13,623 nucleotides of DNA from an uncultured Eubacteriales bacterium. Lineage in GTDB: Bacteria; Bacillota_A; Clostridia; Peptostreptococcales; Anaerovoracaceae. Made by a program: the position numbers and the translations under genes. Positions 3,711-13,568 of this stretch are shown in pieces. A model generated the notes under the pieces. The model saw only the letters and a program-made list of their open reading frames with translations. It ran no database searches and was not told where the DNA came from. Location of the stretch: assembly GCA_902774195.1 (NCBI GenBank), contig CACYHM010000012.1, forward strand, positions 1 to 13,623, given 5' to 3'. How positions within the stretch are numbered: the first letter of the stretch is position 1; every line of letters begins with the position of its first letter.

Positions 3711-4452
3711 TTATCTTTTCCTCCTTCGCTGCCTTCTCTGCGCTTTTCCTTTCCATATCATCGAGCATCCTGAAGATGTCCTTTCTCTTTATGAATACCG
3801 TCAGCAGCATGAGTCCCATGATTATACAGACCGCAGCGACGCCGATGTAATTCTTTTCCCTGAAAAAGAAACCGAAGAAAAGGCTTCCCGCCATGCCGGG
3901 TATCCTGCCTACAGTAGATACCAGCAGGAACGGCAGAAAACGCATCTCGGATATGCCGGCAACATACGAGACCAGATCCTTCGGAATTCCCGGGATGAGG
4001 TATATGAGAAATGCGATCGTAAGTCCTTTCCCGGAATTCAGCTTTCTCTGATAATCGTTGACTCTCTCCTCGCCGAATATCATATGTACAGCATCCCTGC
4101 CGAGGATCTTAGCCGTGAAGAAAGAGATGACGACACCGATGACGGCTCCGGCGAGAGACAGCAGAAGACCGCCGAAAACGCCGAACATGTAGCTCGCTGC
4201 GAACTGTATCGGCTGTCCCGGAAGTATGCATACGACGACCTGGATCGTCTGTATGGCTATTATCAGAAGAGCGGCGATCGATTCGTTTGCCTTTAGATAT
4301 GCGACCATGCGCTCAGCGGCGTCAGCGCTGAATATCTCGCTGCCGTATCTGAAGTACAGAAATGCCGGTATCCCCGCTATGATAAACAGGAGCACCAGCA
4401 GTTTGAGTATGGCAAATATCTTCTTTGTCTTATCTGTTCCCTTGTCTTTCAT
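3703..4452 (-). CDS. TVP38/TMEM64 (DedA-superfamily, VTT domain) membrane protein
   Basis: The protein has 249 residues with hydrophobic segments at about 12-34, 58-77, 88-116, 143-166, 172-197 and 202-221. The VTT core is recognisable: L-P-G-Q-P-I-Q-F-A-A-S-Y-M-F-G at 78-92, with its re-entrant proline/glycine pattern, and I-P-G-I-P-K-D-L-V-S-Y-V-A-G at 153-166. G-R-I-P-G-M-A-G-S at 182-190 is also typical. The tail is charged and cytoplasmic (E-R-K-S-A-E-K-A-A-K-E-E-K). Members are integral membrane proteins; related DedA and VTT proteins have been linked to lipid scrambling or undecaprenyl-phosphate recycling, but the role of this one is not shown by sequence. Its ATG overlaps the stop of the lyase gene upstream by one base (TGATG), so the two are probably coupled. 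Confidence 0.9.
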   Translation of the reverse strand: MKDKGTDKTKKIFAILKLLVLLFIIAGIPAFLYFRYGSEIFSADAAERMVAYLKANESIAALLIIAIQTIQVVVCILPGQPIQFAASYMFGVFGGLLLSLAGAVIGVVISFFTAKILGRDAVHMIFGEERVNDYQRKLNSGKGLTIAFLIYLIPGIPKDLVSYVAGISEMRFLPFLLVSTVGRIPGMAGSLFFGFFFREKNYIGVAAVCIIMGLMLLTVFIKRKDIFRMLDDMERKSAEKAAKEEKISG

Positions 4453-5789
4453 CAGTCCAGTTCTATCATTCCCTTTTTGTATAAAGAATCAAGGCTTCTG
4501 ATTATGCCGTATCTTGAATGTTCATAAGTCAGGCCGCCCTGGAAATACGCGATATAAGGCTCGCGTATCGGAGAATCGGCACTCAATTCGATAGAAGATC
4601 CCTGGACAAAAGCGCCTGCTGCCATGACCACCTGGTCGGCATAGCCCGGCATGTCCCACGGCTCAGGCGATACGTAGGAGTCGATAGGAGCTGCAGCCTG
4701 AATGGCTTTGCAGAATTCAACAGTGCGTTCCGGCGAAGCGAATTTTATGGCCTGTATGATATCGCTTCTCTTCGCATCCGCCGCAGGCATGACTTCAAAA
4801 CCGAGAGAATCATATATGTTCCCGGCGAGCAGAGCGCCCTTAAGAGCCGAATTTACGACTCTGGGCGCGATGAAAAGGCCCTGCAGGACATTTCTGTTCT
4901 GACCGAATGTAAGTCCGCACTCAGCCCCGATACCAGGGCATGTGAGCCTGTAGGATATCTGTTCGATCAGATCTGCGCGGCCGACGATATATCCTCCGGA
5001 AAGCGCGAGACCGCCTCCGGGATTCTTGATCAGAGAACCTGCCATCACATCGACGCCGAATTCGGTAGGTTCGGTGATATCGACGAATTCGCCGTAGCAG
5101 TTGTCGAGCATGACTATGATGCCGGGATCTATGCCGTGAACCAGTTCGGTGACCTTTCTGAGGCTTTCAAGCGATATCGCGGGTCTCCAGTCATAACCTG
5201 TAGAGCGCTGGAGAGCGACAACTTTTGTATCCTTCGAAACTGCTTTTCTGATGGCATCCGTATCGACATCCATATCCGGACCGAGAGCAACCTCTTTATA
5301 TGCTATACCATAATCTCTTATCGTTCCCTTAAACGCACCTTCATTTAGCAGGCCGTGGCCGGTCCTGCCGTTTGCCTTGTTTTCAGAGTCACGTCCGATA
5401 ACGGTCTGAAGAGTATCATACGGTGTTCCCGTCACCTCGATCAGCTCATCTCCGGGACGGAGCATCCCGAGCAAGGTCGCTGCGATGGCATGCGTTCCGT
5501 TGACTATATTAGGTCTGACAAGAGCTGCTTCAGTCCCGAAAACAGAAGCATAGACCCTTTCTACGGCTTCTCTGCCGGCGTCATCATAGCCGTAGCCGGT
5601 GCTCCAGTCGAAATGCGTGGCGTTGATGTGATTGTCCTGAAAGGCCTTGAGGACCTTCATCTGACATATGGCTGTAATGTCATCTATTCCGGCAAAGCGT
5701 TCTGCAAGACGTCTTTCTGTGCTCTGCACCAGATCGATGACCCTTTCATCTATATCAAAGTTTTTTATCAAATATTCTCTGTGATCCAT
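4452..5789 (-). CDS. PLP-dependent lyase of the YnbB / 'aluminium resistance' (methionine gamma-lyase-like) family
   Basis: The 445-residue protein is a fold-type I PLP enzyme. The predicted Schiff-base lysine is K255 in A-G-S-L-I-K-N-P-G-G-G; D229 in M-L-D-N-C-Y-G-E-F should contact the pyridine nitrogen. Q-R-S-T-G-Y-D-W-R-P at 194-203 and N-G-T-H-A-I at 97-102 are further family signatures. Members are annotated as methionine gamma-lyase family or aluminium resistance proteins and are common beside hfq, miaA and mutL in Firmicutes; the true substrate is unclear. The start ATG lies 17 bases after the recombinase stop, with only a weak ribosome site. The length is normal and no lesion is seen. 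Family assignment is strong, physiological role uncertain. Confidence 0.93.
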   Translation of the reverse strand: MDHREYLIKNFDIDERVIDLVQSTERRLAERFAGIDDITAICQMKVLKAFQDNHINATHFDWSTGYGYDDAGREAVERVYASVFGTEAALVRPNIVNGTHAIAATLLGMLRPGDELIEVTGTPYDTLQTVIGRDSENKANGRTGHGLLNEGAFKGTIRDYGIAYKEVALGPDMDVDTDAIRKAVSKDTKVVALQRSTGYDWRPAISLESLRKVTELVHGIDPGIIVMLDNCYGEFVDITEPTEFGVDVMAGSLIKNPGGGLALSGGYIVGRADLIEQISYRLTCPGIGAECGLTFGQNRNVLQGLFIAPRVVNSALKGALLAGNIYDSLGFEVMPAADAKRSDIIQAIKFASPERTVEFCKAIQAAAPIDSYVSPEPWDMPGYADQVVMAAGAFVQGSSIELSADSPIREPYIAYFQGGLTYEHSRYGIIRSLDSLYKKGMIELD

Positions 5790-5806: not shown

Positions 5807-6952
5807 CTAGGTTTCATCAGTCCTTTCCAGCTCCCATTCCATGTCGCTGACCAGATCTCGTTTTACGTTCATCTTGTGCTGAGCATACAGCTGCGTAGTA
5901 GTGACCTGTTCGTGGTCGAGAAGAGCTGCGACATCATATATGGAATTTCCTCTGCCTATAAGCGAGGTCGCGGCCGTAGCCCTCAGCTTATGCGGGCTGT
6001 ACCCTGACTTCCTGCTGGTGTTGAGAGCGATGGAAGTGTATTTCTTTACGAGTTCTCTTATGGCCCTTTCCGTTATGCGCTTTCCCTGAAGCGAGAGGAA
6101 GAGAGCGTCTTCTGCGGCATCGTCCTCGCTTATTACGGTAGTCCTCTCCTCTTTTATGTAGTCGTCAAGCACCATCTGTACGGAGCGGTTGAGAGGCATT
6201 ATGGATTCCTTGCCGCGCTTCCTGTATATCTTGAACTCCCCTCTCGAAAAATTGAAAGACGAAAGATTCAGTTCTCTCAGTTCGCTCAGCCTCAGACCGT
6301 AGGTGACGAACATGACCAGTATCGCCTTATCGCGAAGCTTCGTACGTTCCCAATAAGTTCTTTCGTGAGGAGTAAGTCCGTTTCCGGTGGTGACCGCATC
6401 GAGCATGATCATGACCTCATCATCCTGGAGGGCTTTTATCTCGCGTTCTCCTGGCTTGCTGACTCTTATCGGGTCGAAGCCGTCGGTAATGTTCTTTTCG
6501 AGTATGCCGTCGCGGTACAGCTGTTTGAACATGACGGATATCGAAGATTTCTTTCTGGCCAGCGAACGGTTGTTGTTTTCAAACACCGTCACGGTGCTGC
6601 CGTCATCGACCATGTACTTTCTGCAGTGATCGATGAAGAGGTTTATATCTGCGGCAACTATCCCGTTCATCTCTTCCGATGTGATGTCCTTTGTCTTTTC
6701 AGCCTTTGTCAGATCCGTCTCATTGATAAGGTAATTCATGAAGAATCTGATGTCGTGGAGGTATGCCAGTCTGGTCATCGGAAGGACATTGCCCTTCAGA
6801 TATGCAAAATACGAGCGCATGAAAGAAGGAAGCTCCTTCTGTATGCTCTCGCATTCCATGTAGATGTCGTTTTCTTTTTCGACTATATTGTCAGGCCTGT
6901 CACTCTTGTTGTGAGTCCTGAATTCCTTGCTGTCATATGTGGTCTTTGCCAT
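5807..6952 (-). CDS. Tyrosine recombinase, Xer/phage-integrase family
   Basis: The 381-residue protein has an N-terminal core-binding (SAM-like) domain at about 35-155 and a catalytic domain at about 170-365. All catalytic residues are visible: R221 (G-L-R-L-S-E-L), K245 (Y-R-K-R-G-K), H321 and R324 (H-K-L-R-A-T-A), H347 (L-L-D-H-E-Q) and Y356 (T-Q-L-Y-A-Q). It should therefore be active as a strand-exchange enzyme. I chose ATG at 6952, seven bases after the miaA stop, over the TTG at 6982 that would overlap miaA. Gene order in the block is unbroken and no attachment-site repeats or phage genes flank it, so it looks like a resident gene rather than part of a mobile element. It may be a Xer-type chromosome dimer resolvase; a domesticated integrase is the alternative. 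Confidence 0.92.
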   Translation of the reverse strand: MAKTTYDSKEFRTHNKSDRPDNIVEKENDIYMECESIQKELPSFMRSYFAYLKGNVLPMTRLAYLHDIRFFMNYLINETDLTKAEKTKDITSEEMNGIVAADINLFIDHCRKYMVDDGSTVTVFENNNRSLARKKSSISVMFKQLYRDGILEKNITDGFDPIRVSKPGEREIKALQDDEVMIMLDAVTTGNGLTPHERTYWERTKLRDKAILVMFVTYGLRLSELRELNLSSFNFSRGEFKIYRKRGKESIMPLNRSVQMVLDDYIKEERTTVISEDDAAEDALFLSLQGKRITERAIRELVKKYTSIALNTSRKSGYSPHKLRATAATSLIGRGNSIYDVAALLDHEQVTTTQLYAQHKMNVKRDLVSDMEWELERTDET

Positions 6953-7909: not shown

Positions 7910-9694
7910 TTACTTCCTTCTGAACGATCTTTCGATTTCATAGCTCGTCACTTTTATGAATGTAGGCCTTCCGTGCGGGCACGAAAAAGGATTGCTGCAT
8001 TCCGAGAGCTTTTTCATAAGATCGTTTATTTCGATCTCAGATAAGCTGTCGTTCGCTTTGACTGCCGATTTGCAGGATCTCATGATGAGTTTGTCACGTA
8101 CGGCTTCATTGCCTCCGCGAAGCTCATCGGTACCCTCGAACCAGCCTCTGGCGAATCCGTCAGCTTCTTCAAGTGTCATGTATTCAGGAACCGCTCTTAC
8201 GATGAATGTTCTGTCACCGAAATCTTCGATATCGTAACCCATCGAACGCAGTCCGTCCAGATTATGTCTTTCGCTTAAGTATACATCAGCGCTCACGTTA
8301 ATTGTGAAGGGTGTGAGAACAGGCTGAGGAATATGGGTGGAATTCCTGTATCCTTCCATGAATTTTTCGTAGAATACGCGTTCGTGAGCAGCATGCTGAT
8401 CGAAAACGTAAAGGCTGTCTCCGCTCTGCATTATTATGTATGTGTCAAAAACATAGCCCCTGTAAACGAGTTCCGAAAAATCAAAAGGCGCCGGAGGCCT
8501 GCTCTCAAATGAAGGGATCTCCTCTCTGACCTCAGCGGCCGCGGCATACGGCCTGTCTGAAGAAGCAGCTGTTTCTTCAGGTCGTTCAAGAGTTTTGAGA
8601 TATTCCTTTATGAATCTTTGTCCGTTTCCGGAGCCGCTGATGTTTTTCTCCATTTCCGGACGCGGTACTCCGGGATCAGCAGTTTCAGATGAAGCCGTTT
8701 CCGGAGCGAAGACCTCCGGGACTCCTCTCCCGCTCATGACGGCCTTGTTCACTGCATCGGTGATGCTCTGTCTGACATCATCCTGTCTTAAGAACCTTAT
8801 CTCTCTTTTGCCGGGATGGATATTTACATCTATTTCCCTCGGATCCTGATCGATGAAGAGGATCGCCAGAGGAAATCCGCTGAAAATACGGCCGGAATAG
8901 CCGTCTATAAGTCCCTTTTCTATGACATTGCTGTCTACCAGCCTGCCGTTCACGAAGAAAAACTGTCCTTTCCTGCTGGTTCGTGTAGTCCCGGGATCCG
9001 ACACATAGCCTCTGACGCTGTCTCCCTCGACAGGGATCAGTCTGTGCGCGTGGAGATCCGGATAAAGCGCGTCGGCAGCAGCCAGCACATCTCCGTCTCC
9101 GCTGGTCGTGAAAACGGTCTGCCCGTTGCTTATCATCATGAACTTTATCCCGGCGTAGTAGATCGCAAACTGCTGTATGAGCTCTATGACCGCAGAAGCT
9201 TCCCTGGCGTCGCTTTTCATGAATTTGCGTCTTGCCGGAGTGTTATAGAAAAGGTCTTCGACTATGATAGTCGTTCCTTTGTTGGCGCCGGTCCTTTCGC
9301 TTGAGATGACCTTGCCTCCGTGCATTACGAGTTTTATACCGCTTGCTTCTTCTGCCGTACGGCTGACCATAGTAAGCCTGGATACTGCCGCGATGCTTGC
9401 AAGGGCTTCGCCCCTGAACCCGAGAGATACGATCTCATCGAGGTCCGCTATGCTGCTTATCTTGCTGGTCGCATGCCTTAAAAAAGCGGTCTCCGCTTCT
9501 TCCGGAGCTATGCCGCATCCGTCATCAGTGATGCGCATATATGACTTGCCGCCGCCTCTGATCTCTACTATGATCTGCGAAGCGCCTGCATCTATTGAAT
9601 TCTCGACTAATTCCTTCGCAGCAGAAACCGGCCGTTCGATGACCTCGCCGGCCGCGATCTTGTCTGCTGTAAAACTGTCGAGTACTCTTATCAT
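7910..9694 (-). CDS. mutL: DNA mismatch repair protein MutL (endonuclease type)
   Basis: MutL couples mismatch recognition by MutS to strand incision. The N-terminal GHKL ATPase carries K-E-L-V-E-N-S-I-D-A-G-A at 27-38, D-D-G-C-G-I at 57-62, R-H-A-T-S-K-I at 73-79 and G-F-R-G-E-A-L-A-S-I at 92-101. A linker of about 80 low-complexity residues (325-405) leads to the C-terminal dimerisation domain. That domain contains the metal-binding endonuclease motif DQHA(x)2E(x)4E at 432-443 (D432, H434, E438, E443), S-C-K-S-A-V-K-A at 540-547 and C-P-H-G-R-P at 572-577. It should therefore nick DNA itself, as in bacteria without MutH. The ATG directly abuts the mutS stop codon, so coupling is likely. No lesion was seen in its 594 residues. 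Confidence 0.97.
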   Translation of the reverse strand: MIRVLDSFTADKIAAGEVIERPVSAAKELVENSIDAGASQIIVEIRGGGKSYMRITDDGCGIAPEEAETAFLRHATSKISSIADLDEIVSLGFRGEALASIAAVSRLTMVSRTAEEASGIKLVMHGGKVISSERTGANKGTTIIVEDLFYNTPARRKFMKSDAREASAVIELIQQFAIYYAGIKFMMISNGQTVFTTSGDGDVLAAADALYPDLHAHRLIPVEGDSVRGYVSDPGTTRTSRKGQFFFVNGRLVDSNVIEKGLIDGYSGRIFSGFPLAILFIDQDPREIDVNIHPGKREIRFLRQDDVRQSITDAVNKAVMSGRGVPEVFAPETASSETADPGVPRPEMEKNISGSGNGQRFIKEYLKTLERPEETAASSDRPYAAAAEVREEIPSFESRPPAPFDFSELVYRGYVFDTYIIMQSGDSLYVFDQHAAHERVFYEKFMEGYRNSTHIPQPVLTPFTINVSADVYLSERHNLDGLRSMGYDIEDFGDRTFIVRAVPEYMTLEEADGFARGWFEGTDELRGGNEAVRDKLIMRSCKSAVKANDSLSEIEINDLMKKLSECSNPFSCPHGRPTFIKVTSYEIERSFRRK

Positions 9695-12277
9695 TCAGTC
9701 GTTTTCTTTCGCTTCTTCTGTTATCTCCTGAAGCGCCACAAGAGCAGCTACAGGAGTCATCGTATTGATATCTATCGATCTCAGCTTCGCCTCGATCCTG
9801 CTGTATTTTTCAGACCGGGCATCATTGACTTCATCAGGCATGAAACTGATCTGCTCTGCCGGCTTTTCCTCAGGAGATGTCATGAGCTCTACAGATTCGA
9901 GTTCGCGCAGCTTCTTTCTCGCCGCGCTTCTGATAGTCTCGGGGATGCCTGCTATCCTTGCTACATGTATGCCGTAGCTCTTGCTTGCGGGACCTTCGAT
10001 TATGTTGTGAAGGAACACCACATCATTGCCGTCTTCAGCGGCCGCGACCGAGAGATTATGTATTCCCTCGTGCCCGGCTGCAAGTTCCGTCAGCTCGTGA
10101 TAGTGCGTGGCGAACATCGTCCTGACTCTGTGGCCCGGCTCAGCGAGATATTCAGCTGTGGCCCAGGCGATCGACAGGCCGTCAAACGTGCTCGTTCCTC
10201 TTCCGATCTCATCGAGTATGATAAGGCTCCTTTCGGTAGCGTTCCTGAGTATGCCCGCAAGCTCGCTCATCTCGATGTAGAATGTGGACTGACCGTATGA
10301 CAGATTATCCGACGCGCCTATCCTGGTGAATATGCGGTCGACGGTGCCTATGACCGCCGAATCGGCCGGAACGAAGCAGCCGATCTGCGCCATCAGTACT
10401 ATGACAGCCGTCTGGCGCATGTATGTCGACTTACCGGACATGTTCGGGCCTGTGATTATGAGCATGCTTCGCTCAGTCATGTCCATGTACGTATCGTTGG
10501 ATACGAACATGCCTGCTCCGAGGAGCTTTTCTACCGCCGGGTGCCTCCCGCCTCTGATGTCTATCACATCGCCGCTGTTGACGACAGGCCTCACATATGA
10601 ATTATCGGAGGCGACTTTTGCAAATGCGGCAAGCACATCGAGGCATGCTATCGCGGACGATGCAGTCTGCAGAGCTCCTATGTAGGGCTCGACTGCCTGC
10701 CTTATCTTTCTGAACTCCTCATACTCGAGCCTGTTGATCTTGGCCTCGGCTGTGAGAACGAGATCTTCTTTTTCCTTGAGTTCCGGAGTGATATATCTTT
10801 CGTTGTTGACAAGAGTCTGTTTGCGGATATAGTCGTCAGGCACCTTATCGGCCATCCCCTTGCTTACGTCTATGTAATATCCGAAGACCTTGTTGAAGCC
10901 GACTCTGATGGTCTTTATGCCTGTCCGTTCCTTTTCGCGGGGCTCAAGCTCCGCTATCCATTCTTTTGCGTCGGCGATACTGTTTTTCAGTCCGTCGAGT
11001 TCCTTTGAATACCCGTTTCTGATGATGCCGCCCTCTGTGACAGCAAGCGGCGGATCGTCTGTTATCGCCCTGTCTATCAGCTGGTAAAGATCATCGAATG
11101 AAGCTATGTCTTCGTTGATGGTCCTGAGTAAAGACGTATTGAATGACGCCAGCTCTGCCTTGATATCAGGAAGCTGCGCAAGTGTTTTTTTGAGGCTCCA
11201 ATATGCATTTTGCATATGCATTTTGCATAATGTTATTACCGGCTCATTCTTGAGAGCCTCGACGGCATCGAGCCTTGCATTTATTTCGTCCGCTCCGGTA
11301 AGAGGTTCTCTGAGCCATGATCTCAGGAGCCTGCCTCCCATTGCAGTCTTTGTCTTTCCTATGACACCGAGCAGCGAGCCGTTCACATCATGATCGTAGA
11401 TCGTCTCGAGCAGCTCAAGGTTGCGGAGTGTCGAGCGGTCAAGGTGCATGCTGCCGTCCTGCCGGCGTATGTTTATGTTCCTGATCTGGCCGGGATCGCT
11501 CATCTGCATCTCTCTGAGGTACATGATCAGAGAACCTGCAGCAGATGTCATCTCTTCTCTTCCCTCCAGATCAAGAGGTATGAGAGACGTGACGCCGAAA
11601 TGGTTCATAAGAACGTCTCTGCATGCCTGGTATCTGTACCACGAATCATCCACACGGTCGAGATATACTCCCGGCATATGCTCAGAAAGCGTTTTTTCGA
11701 GTTCTGGAGCGCTTTTTTCGTTTATAACGAGCTCTTTTATGCCCAGGACCGATATCTCGTTCAGAAGGCGGTCAGAGCCCGACAGCGGATCGCCTTTTTT
11801 ATCGTTTTCAAATTCATAAGCGCTGAGCTCGCCTGTAGTTATGTCGGCTACTGCCAGCCCTGTCATTTCATCCGAAAAAGATACCGAAGCGATATAGACG
11901 TTTTCATCGCTCCTGCCGGCATCGCTGATGTCGAGAGTCCCGGGTGTATAGATGCGTGTGATCTCGCGCTTTACTATGCCTTTTGCCTCGGCGGGATCCT
12001 CCATCTGTTCGCATATGGCCACCTTATGTCCGTTGTTCACGAGCCTGACGATGTACTGGTCGACCGAATGATGCGGAACTCCGCACATCGGCGCTCTTTC
12101 TTCGAGCCCGCAGTTGCGTCCGGTCAGTGTGAGCTCAAGCTCCCTTGAAGCAAGCAGCGCATCATCAAAAAACATCTCGTAGAAATCTCCGAGACGGTAC
12201 ATCAGGATAGTATCTTTGTACTCATCCTTGATCGCCATATACTGCTGCATCATTGGGGAAAGTTTAGCTTCTGCCAT
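9695..12277 (-). CDS. mutS: DNA mismatch recognition protein MutS, with an apparent domain III deletion
   Basis: MutS binds mispairs and small loops and recruits MutL. In its 860 residues I see the mismatch-wedge F-x-E (F32-Y33-E34 in G-D-F-Y-E-M-F), Walker A G-P-N-M-S-G-K-S-T at 610-618, the S-T-F signature at 664-666, Walker B with D-E-I-G-R-G-T-S-T-F-D-G at 689-700, and T-H-Y-H-E-L at 724-729. A likely sliding-clamp motif, Q-I-S-F-M, is at 809-813. Domain III is abnormal. Between L-D-A-V-E-A-L-K-N-E-P-V (336-347) and L-P-D-I-K-A-E-L (369-376) the usual D-L-E-R...R-D-L segment is missing, and residues 348-360 are atypical and encoded by a 13-base tandem repeat. From memory of E. coli MutS the gap is about 16 residues. 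Domains I, II, IV and the ATPase look intact, so the protein may be folded but impaired. The start lacks a well-spaced ribosome site. Confidence 0.95.
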   Translation of the reverse strand: MAEAKLSPMMQQYMAIKDEYKDTILMYRLGDFYEMFFDDALLASRELELTLTGRNCGLEERAPMCGVPHHSVDQYIVRLVNNGHKVAICEQMEDPAEAKGIVKREITRIYTPGTLDISDAGRSDENVYIASVSFSDEMTGLAVADITTGELSAYEFENDKKGDPLSGSDRLLNEISVLGIKELVINEKSAPELEKTLSEHMPGVYLDRVDDSWYRYQACRDVLMNHFGVTSLIPLDLEGREEMTSAAGSLIMYLREMQMSDPGQIRNINIRRQDGSMHLDRSTLRNLELLETIYDHDVNGSLLGVIGKTKTAMGGRLLRSWLREPLTGADEINARLDAVEALKNEPVITLCKMHMQNAYWSLKKTLAQLPDIKAELASFNTSLLRTINEDIASFDDLYQLIDRAITDDPPLAVTEGGIIRNGYSKELDGLKNSIADAKEWIAELEPREKERTGIKTIRVGFNKVFGYYIDVSKGMADKVPDDYIRKQTLVNNERYITPELKEKEDLVLTAEAKINRLEYEEFRKIRQAVEPYIGALQTASSAIACLDVLAAFAKVASDNSYVRPVVNSGDVIDIRGGRHPAVEKLLGAGMFVSNDTYMDMTERSMLIITGPNMSGKSTYMRQTAVIVLMAQIGCFVPADSAVIGTVDRIFTRIGASDNLSYGQSTFYIEMSELAGILRNATERSLIILDEIGRGTSTFDGLSIAWATAEYLAEPGHRVRTMFATHYHELTELAAGHEGIHNLSVAAAEDGNDVVFLHNIIEGPASKSYGIHVARIAGIPETIRSAARKKLRELESVELMTSPEEKPAEQISFMPDEVNDARSEKYSRIEAKLRSIDINTMTPVAALVALQEITEEAKEND
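11201..11229. repeat. 13-base tandem repeat (2.2 copies) inside mutS
   Basis: ATATGCATTTTGC occurs at 11201-11213 and again, perfectly, at 11214-11226, followed by ATA. The unit itself contains the inverted repeat ATGCA-N3-TGCAT, and the junction contains TGCATATGCA. It encodes the atypical residues K-M-H-M-Q-N-A-Y at the point where conserved MutS sequence is missing. Thirteen is not a multiple of three, so gain or loss of one unit would shift the mutS frame. Confidence 0.9.
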
Positions 12278-12367: not shown

Positions 12368-13568
12368 TTATTTCTTCTTGTTGTTGTAAGCCTCTACGCC
12401 GAGCTTTATGAGTTCGCACGCTCTCTTCATCTTGTCAGGTGTCAGAACGTATGCGATACGCATCTCGTTGCCGCCAAGGCCCTTTGTCGCATAGAATCCA
12501 GGAGCCGGAGCGAACATCGCCGTCTCGCCGTTGTCGTCGAATTCCTTGAGCATGAACATGAGGAAGTCCTCGATGTTGTCTACAGGAAGCTTGCATGTCA
12601 TGTAGAACGCGCCTGCAGGCTTCTGGCAGACCACTCCAGGGATCTTGGAGATCTCTTCGTAAGCGGCGTCTCTTCTTGCTTCGTACTCGGCCTTTGCCTC
12701 GTCATAATAGCTCTTGTCCATTCTGTAAAGAGCCGCAGCTCCAACCTGCTCGAGGGTAGGAACACAGAGTCTGCCCTGTGCGAGCTTCAGAAGTGCGCTC
12801 ATGAAATCCTTGTTCTTGGAGATCGCAGCACCGATACGAGCGCCGCATGCCGACCATCTCTTGAACGGAGTCGATGATGACGACTCTGTCAGCGATGTCA
12901 GGAAGCTGTCCGAATGAGTGAGCTTCAGCTCCGTCATATACGAATTCTCTGTATACCTCGTCGGAGATGATCCAGAGGTCGTGCTCCTTGGCGATGTCGC
13001 CGATGAGTCTCATGTCTTCCATCGTGAGAACTCTTCCTGTAGGGTTTCCAGGCGAGAGGCAGCAGATGGCCTTTGTCTTAGGAGTGATGGCTGCTTCGAT
13101 AAGGTCTCTCTTGGCCCAGTTGTAGCCATCCTCTGCGGAAGTGGTAAGCGGTACGAGAACTCCGGATACCTCGTTGCAGAATGTGTTGTAGTTCGTGTAG
13201 AACGGCTCGGCGATAAGAGCCTCATCGCCAGGGTTCAGAAGAGCCGTGAACGCGAGGATGAGAGCCTCGGAACCTCCGTTTGTGATGAGGATGTCGTCTC
13301 TCTCATACTCCATGCCGAAGTCTCTCTTCATGTAGTAGATCATTGCGTCGCGCAGTTCGTCGATACCCTGGGACTCAGCATATGCTATGACCTTTCTGTC
13401 GAACTTTCTGATAGCGTCCATGAAGCAGTCAGGTGTCTCGATGTCCGGCTGGCCGATGTTGAGGCGGTAGACCTTCTTGCCGTGCTCTCTTTCAGCCTCA
13501 AAAGCAAAAACGTTGAATCTTCTGATTGGCGAGAACTGCATTGCTGCACATCTTTTTGATACTTCCAT
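12368..13568 (-). pseudogene. Class I/II PLP aminotransferase (aspartate/aromatic type), frameshifted at the catalytic lysine
   Basis: Two overlapping frames together encode one roughly 400-residue aminotransferase. Frame 1 (from ATG 13568, 235 codons) carries L-N-I-G-Q-P-D-I-E-T-P, T-N-G-G-S-E-A at 95-101, S-P-G-N-P-T-G-R and the PLP-binding S-D-E-V-Y-R-E, ending at D-S-V. Frame 2 resumes at 12862 with K-R-W-S-A-C-G-A-R-I-G and runs to the stop at 12368. Relatives read D-S-V-S-K-R-x-S-A-C-G-A-R-I-G, where K is the Schiff-base lysine. One serine codon is therefore reduced to a single C at 12863, a net loss of two bases (or +1). Unrepaired, frame 1 ends at 12702 without the lysine and should be inactive. 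No other decay is visible, so the event is recent or an assembly error. A good ribosome site (AAAGGAG, 10 bases upstream) precedes the ATG. Confidence 0.85.

Follow-up and report, generated by a model that had tools for sequence, protein, structure and literature searches.

The window analysed here is the whole 13,623-nt stretch of contig CACYHM010000012.1, and the features that bear on its mutS gene are collected in Table 1. Downstream of mutS lie mutL and a gene that is probably miaA. This gene order, together with domains I to V of MutS, is the same as in the Mogibacterium relatives P0001-P0004, and the host is a gut Mogibacterium-like bacterium. The window MutS matches PF01624, PF05188, PF05192, PF05190 and PF00488, each above its cut-off, and it retains the mismatch-binding F-x-E motif and the Walker motifs. 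Around mutS, the window is 82-88% identical by blastn to the related loci L101 and L102. At the other end, positions 1-2464 gave no blastn match to the syntenic locus L103 except for 46 nt at 2122-2167 (97.8%), and the match resumes at 2465; this part of the window varies between strains, apart from one short piece that is conserved. The minus-strand gene at 4452-5789, whose product is presumably methionine-gamma-lyase-like, differs in length by 39 nt, but the loop concerned (about residues 135-153) varies in length among relatives, and the difference was put down to natural variation.

Table 1. Features of the window around the altered mutS gene.
Feature	Position	Strand	Description
miaA	6960-7901	-	After mutS and mutL; relatives in L101/L102 at 89-91%
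mutL	7910..9694	-	Open frame of full length, 594 aa; immediately downstream of mutS
mutS	9695..12277	-	860-aa open frame; domains I-V all above Pfam cut-offs
Replacement block	11195..11233	-	39 nt, residues 349-361; relatives have 99 nt, 33 residues (P0001 349-381)
13-nt direct tandem repeat ATATGCATTTTGC	11201..11229	.	2.2 copies, period 13, 100% matches
Class I/II aminotransferase	12368..13568	-	Upstream of mutS; two frames, split at about 12865-12866; 2 nt shorter than in L101 and L102

A segment of domain III is replaced in the window MutS

The protein alignment shows that 13 residues (39 nt) of the window MutS stand where relatives have 33 (99 nt), a net loss of 60 nt that keeps the reading frame. 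The protein text is exactly as a preliminary description of this DNA had given it: E-P-V ends at residue 347, the atypical residues I-T-L-C-K-M-H-M-Q-N-A-Y-W occupy 348-360, and the conserved text resumes at S361 with LKK from 362. The 13-base tandem described there is also present, with ATATGCATTTTGC standing twice without a mismatch (11201-11213 and 11214-11226) and followed by 3 more matching bases. In 40 simulated windows, drawn from a Markov chain with a 3-base context, tandem runs peaked at 10 matches in 2 windows and at 9 in 2, and the other 36 had none, compared to 16 in the real window. The G+C content of 11196-11233 is 32%, compared to 48% window-wide, and DNA alignment to L101 and L102 leaves a few bases flanking the block as possibly native. 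Since 12-17% of random 39-nt fillers would keep the frame and contain no stop, the open frame of the block is no evidence of function.

Relatives of MutS were collected by searching 5.8 billion proteins, in which 7998 relatives were scored and the best 120 of the 7998 were listed. Between EPV and LKK, all 120 of these listed nearest proteins carry 34 residues, compared to 14 in the window MutS. A mutS match was found in 102 fetched loci, and 34 residues together with D-x-x-R are kept in all 101 alignments that span the segment (L086, which does not span it, was left out); this count includes duplicates, because some loci come from a contig that was fetched repeatedly: of 133 loci in all, counting 30 that were added afterwards, 25 are contained within another locus. 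The genus genomes gave the 34-residue segment in 30 of 30 loci, which were drawn from 44 genomes with a mutS match and some of which overlap the loci already counted. The lists of relatives were ranked by MutS similarity and are therefore biased toward intact copies. Every compared relative has a D-x-x-R segment in domain III, whereas the window MutS has none and, with 13 residues in place of 33, falls 20 residues short of its nearest kin. These counts bear out the claim that a conserved segment of domain III is missing, with the correction that the motif in this genus is D-F-Q-R ... A-R-D-L instead of D-L-E-R. In E. coli, D-L-E-R falls at positions 347-350 by counting in the alignment. Compared with P0001-P0004 and with E. 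coli MutS (PDB 1e3m, 7ai5), the window protein has 13 unrelated residues in place of 33 residues of domain III that include D-x-x-R.

In a survey of the genus, mutS was found in 44 of 47 genomes, 40 times as a full-length single match without stops; the exceptions were three partial matches (G006, G022 and G040) and one gene split in two, with a stop (G027). The two parts of the G027 gene (G027:C175:1213-3788) correspond to residues 1-465 and 483-879, and one TGA is present. Elsewhere in the genus, mutS is well kept. Damaged or cut mutS copies occur in such assemblies, and the window lesion is not among them. Two Lachnospiraceae MAGs (L042:6001-9438 and L079:6001-9394) have mutS matches about 800 nt over the usual length, possibly due to an insertion or an intein.

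The lost stretch comprises the D-x-x-R motif and helices of the lever domain (domain III). Residues Y360, D361 and R364 of P0001 are invariant across a 49-sequence alignment down to 45% identity. The model of P0001 has predicted helices at 346-356, 362-370 and 376-396, with predicted block confidences of 96, 96, 89 and 86 over residues 341-380. In the model of the window MutS, residues 348-360 fall below pLDDT 50 and the means are 66 (341-350) and 41 (351-360), compared to 96 and 96 in P0001, a low confidence that arises partly because the novel segment is uncovered by other rows of the alignment. The preliminary description had proposed an in-frame but probably impaired MutS and had suggested modelling to look for a loss of domain III helices. 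The models agree with both: P0001 has helices where the window model drops below pLDDT 50, and the predicted confidence collapses at the core segment of domain III that is replaced. Taken together, the sequence and the models suggest that the MutS protein as written is probably dead or impaired, and mismatch repair would likely be lost.

Searches for the source of the filler

The 26-base tandem, with up to 2 mismatches allowed, was found in 0 of 47 genus genomes and 0 of 297 order genomes, two sets that have some genomes in common. An exact 28-mer of the filler gave 0 matches in viral_contigs. With 56 bases as the query, blastn returned 1 record from plasmids (E 1) and 24 records from phages, of which 10 were shown at E 1 to 4, all at chance level. 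A scan of the window and of L101-L103 for exact matches of 11 bases or longer turned up a single one, of 11 bases, at position 6800 of the window. A mobile-element or foreign origin of the filler was therefore set aside, as no source appeared in viral_contigs, plasmids, phages, or the genus or order genomes. A protein search with the junction (residues 341-381) gave 14 candidates and none scored, a weak result for a 41-residue query against a very large database; in addition, the proteins were clustered at 90%, so that a second copy of the allele could hide in the cluster of P0001 (9 members).

Two other readings were considered and rejected. The repeat units resemble short inverted repeats, yet shuffled sequences fold as well as the 51-nt strand does (z -0.41), and the idea of a hairpin was dropped. 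A cross-species chimera at the lesion would fit the step in identity to L101 and L102 (81-82% on one side, 87-88% on the other), yet P0001-P0004 match both sides at 99%, which shows that the step reflects gene conservation. Deletion with filler DNA, or short-patch illegitimate recombination, also swaps a short native stretch for a short sequence of other origin; the window differs from such cases in that the donor of its filler was not found in the sets searched. A literature search on short-patch recombination found no paper on deletion with filler DNA.

A second private lesion and the age of the change

The split in the aminotransferase gene falls at its S-x-S-K motif, presumably the pyridoxal-phosphate lysine site. 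The gene is in one frame in 12 of the 12 related loci that have both halves, which represent 10 genomes (L001, L082 and L102 are one). This frameshift is a second window-private lesion, 1.6 kb from the mutS block. No other net frame break was found when the mgl-like, recombinase, miaA, mutL and mutS genes were compared with L102. The presence of two private lesions within 1.7 kb suggests a local fault or a damaged strain. Among kin aminotransferases, P0121 (a partial sequence from an NCBI Mogibacterium MAG) has an internal duplicated stretch and P0145 has an internal gap, and both are probably misassembled.

Outside the block, the window MutS is 99.05, 99.52, 99.28 and 99.16% identical to P0001-P0004 and 97.1-97.5% identical to P0005-P0008. 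It has 0 private residues there relative to the first 10 relatives and 0 relative to all 120. Given the near identity and the lack of private residues, the lesion either arose long after these sequences diverged or is not real. The change in the window mutS is private and disruptive, in a gene that is otherwise conserved. With regard to a raised mutation rate, the observations are the lack of private residues in the remaining MutS and the one frameshift next door.

Discussion

The reading that we prefer, at a probability of roughly one half, is that the window carries a recent, strain-private mutS lesion of the loss-of-function type, that is, a real null allele. The DNA would then be present in a living strain, in which one illegitimate event (a break or stalled fork, a deletion, filler synthesis and a slip doubling the 13-mer) may have removed about 99 nt encoding the lever-domain stretch D-x-x-R ... 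A-R-D-L and inserted 39 nt of AT-rich filler with the 13-nt tandem repeat, in frame by chance. The resulting MutS would be unable to couple mismatch binding to the ATPase, which would make the strain a mutator. Against the null allele, the lesion is known from one contig only, the absence of private residues elsewhere in MutS gives no hint of prolonged decay or of a long-standing mutator, and one artefact could explain both this lesion and the frame-breaking one in the aminotransferase. Because of that second private lesion, we consider it nearly as likely, both weights being a matter of judgement, that a chimeric or low-coverage metagenome junction placed junk sequence inside a mutS that is in fact intact. 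Such an artefact is favoured by two private disruptive differences less than 1.7 kb apart, in conserved places of conserved genes and beside a MutS with no other private residue, as well as by the misassembled appearance of the two kin aminotransferases, by a filler whose source was not found in the sets searched, and by the absence of the lesion allele from every relative compared. However, the five neighbouring genes compared with L102 are otherwise free of net frame breaks, a short-read graph assembler normally requires reads that contain the junction, and a perfect 13-mer tandem is a pattern that real filler DNA can have. A shortened MutS that still functions, with the 13-residue segment tolerated or altering its function, seems very unlikely. 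The open frame, the F-x-E and Walker motifs and the five matched Pfam domains are compatible with it, but the invariant residues are gone, the predicted segment has no confidence, and the short form is shared by none of the 120 listed proteins, none of the 101 spanning alignments and none of the 30 genus loci.

The preliminary description had also named slippage as a cause of the loss, and had proposed that the repeat acts as a reversible contingency switch that toggles mutS. Slippage is not supported as the cause of the loss, as relatives have no 13-base unit at this place and the change exchanged about 99 nt, not a single repeat unit. For the switch, the part of the proposal that stands is the frame: 13 is not a multiple of 3, and one unit gained or lost shifts it, with 0, 1, 3 and 4 units leading to stops at codons 362, 387, 375 and 400 while 2 and 5 units leave the gene open. 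In addition, a precedent exists in the repeat-based conversion of mutL in Salmonella, with candidate repeats in mutS too (PMC2955026). However, no copy number restores the lost residues. Since the same 33 residues are absent at every repeat length, there is no on/off switch of a working MutS, and a toggle would run between a damaged and a truncated protein; no change in copy number converts a working form to a non-working one. Moreover, just 2.2 copies are present, the repeat was found in none of the 47 genus or 297 order genomes, and the block is in none of the 120 proteins or any other mutS relative. The Salmonella mutL repeat, by contrast, is part of a functional gene and is conserved across the Salmonella-E. 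coli-Shigella complex (PMC2955026). The 6-bp allele conversion of mutL in Salmonella and E. coli likewise involves a tandem repeat within a mismatch-repair gene, but there the conserved repeat has three 6-bp copies and one unit alters function (PMC2955026), whereas the 13-nt repeat of the window exists only in the lesion. We give the switch almost no credence, and the 13-nt repeat is a by-product of the lesion. It is also very unlikely that the short MutS works in part (for example, by binding mismatches without proper ATPase coupling) and that an unstable repeat lets the lineage alternate between partial and null repair.

Overall, the window mutS appears to be either a single damaged copy of an ordinary kind or an error in the sequence, and whether it is real or not, knowledge of MutS and of repeat-based switches is unchanged. 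Loss-of-function alleles of mutS occur in natural and laboratory mutators, and variation in mutation rate has reportedly been described among gut E. coli. The window shares with such mutator alleles a disrupted mutS next to an intact mutL, and differs from them in its cause, a deletion with filler, and in that the allele here is known from the sequence of one contig. If the lesion is not real, it shows that an assembly error is able to pass for a working repair gene. If the lesion is real, it is a case of filler DNA that left an open frame by chance, so that automatic annotation would still label the gene intact, and it would make this uncultured gut anaerobe a candidate for a natural mutator.
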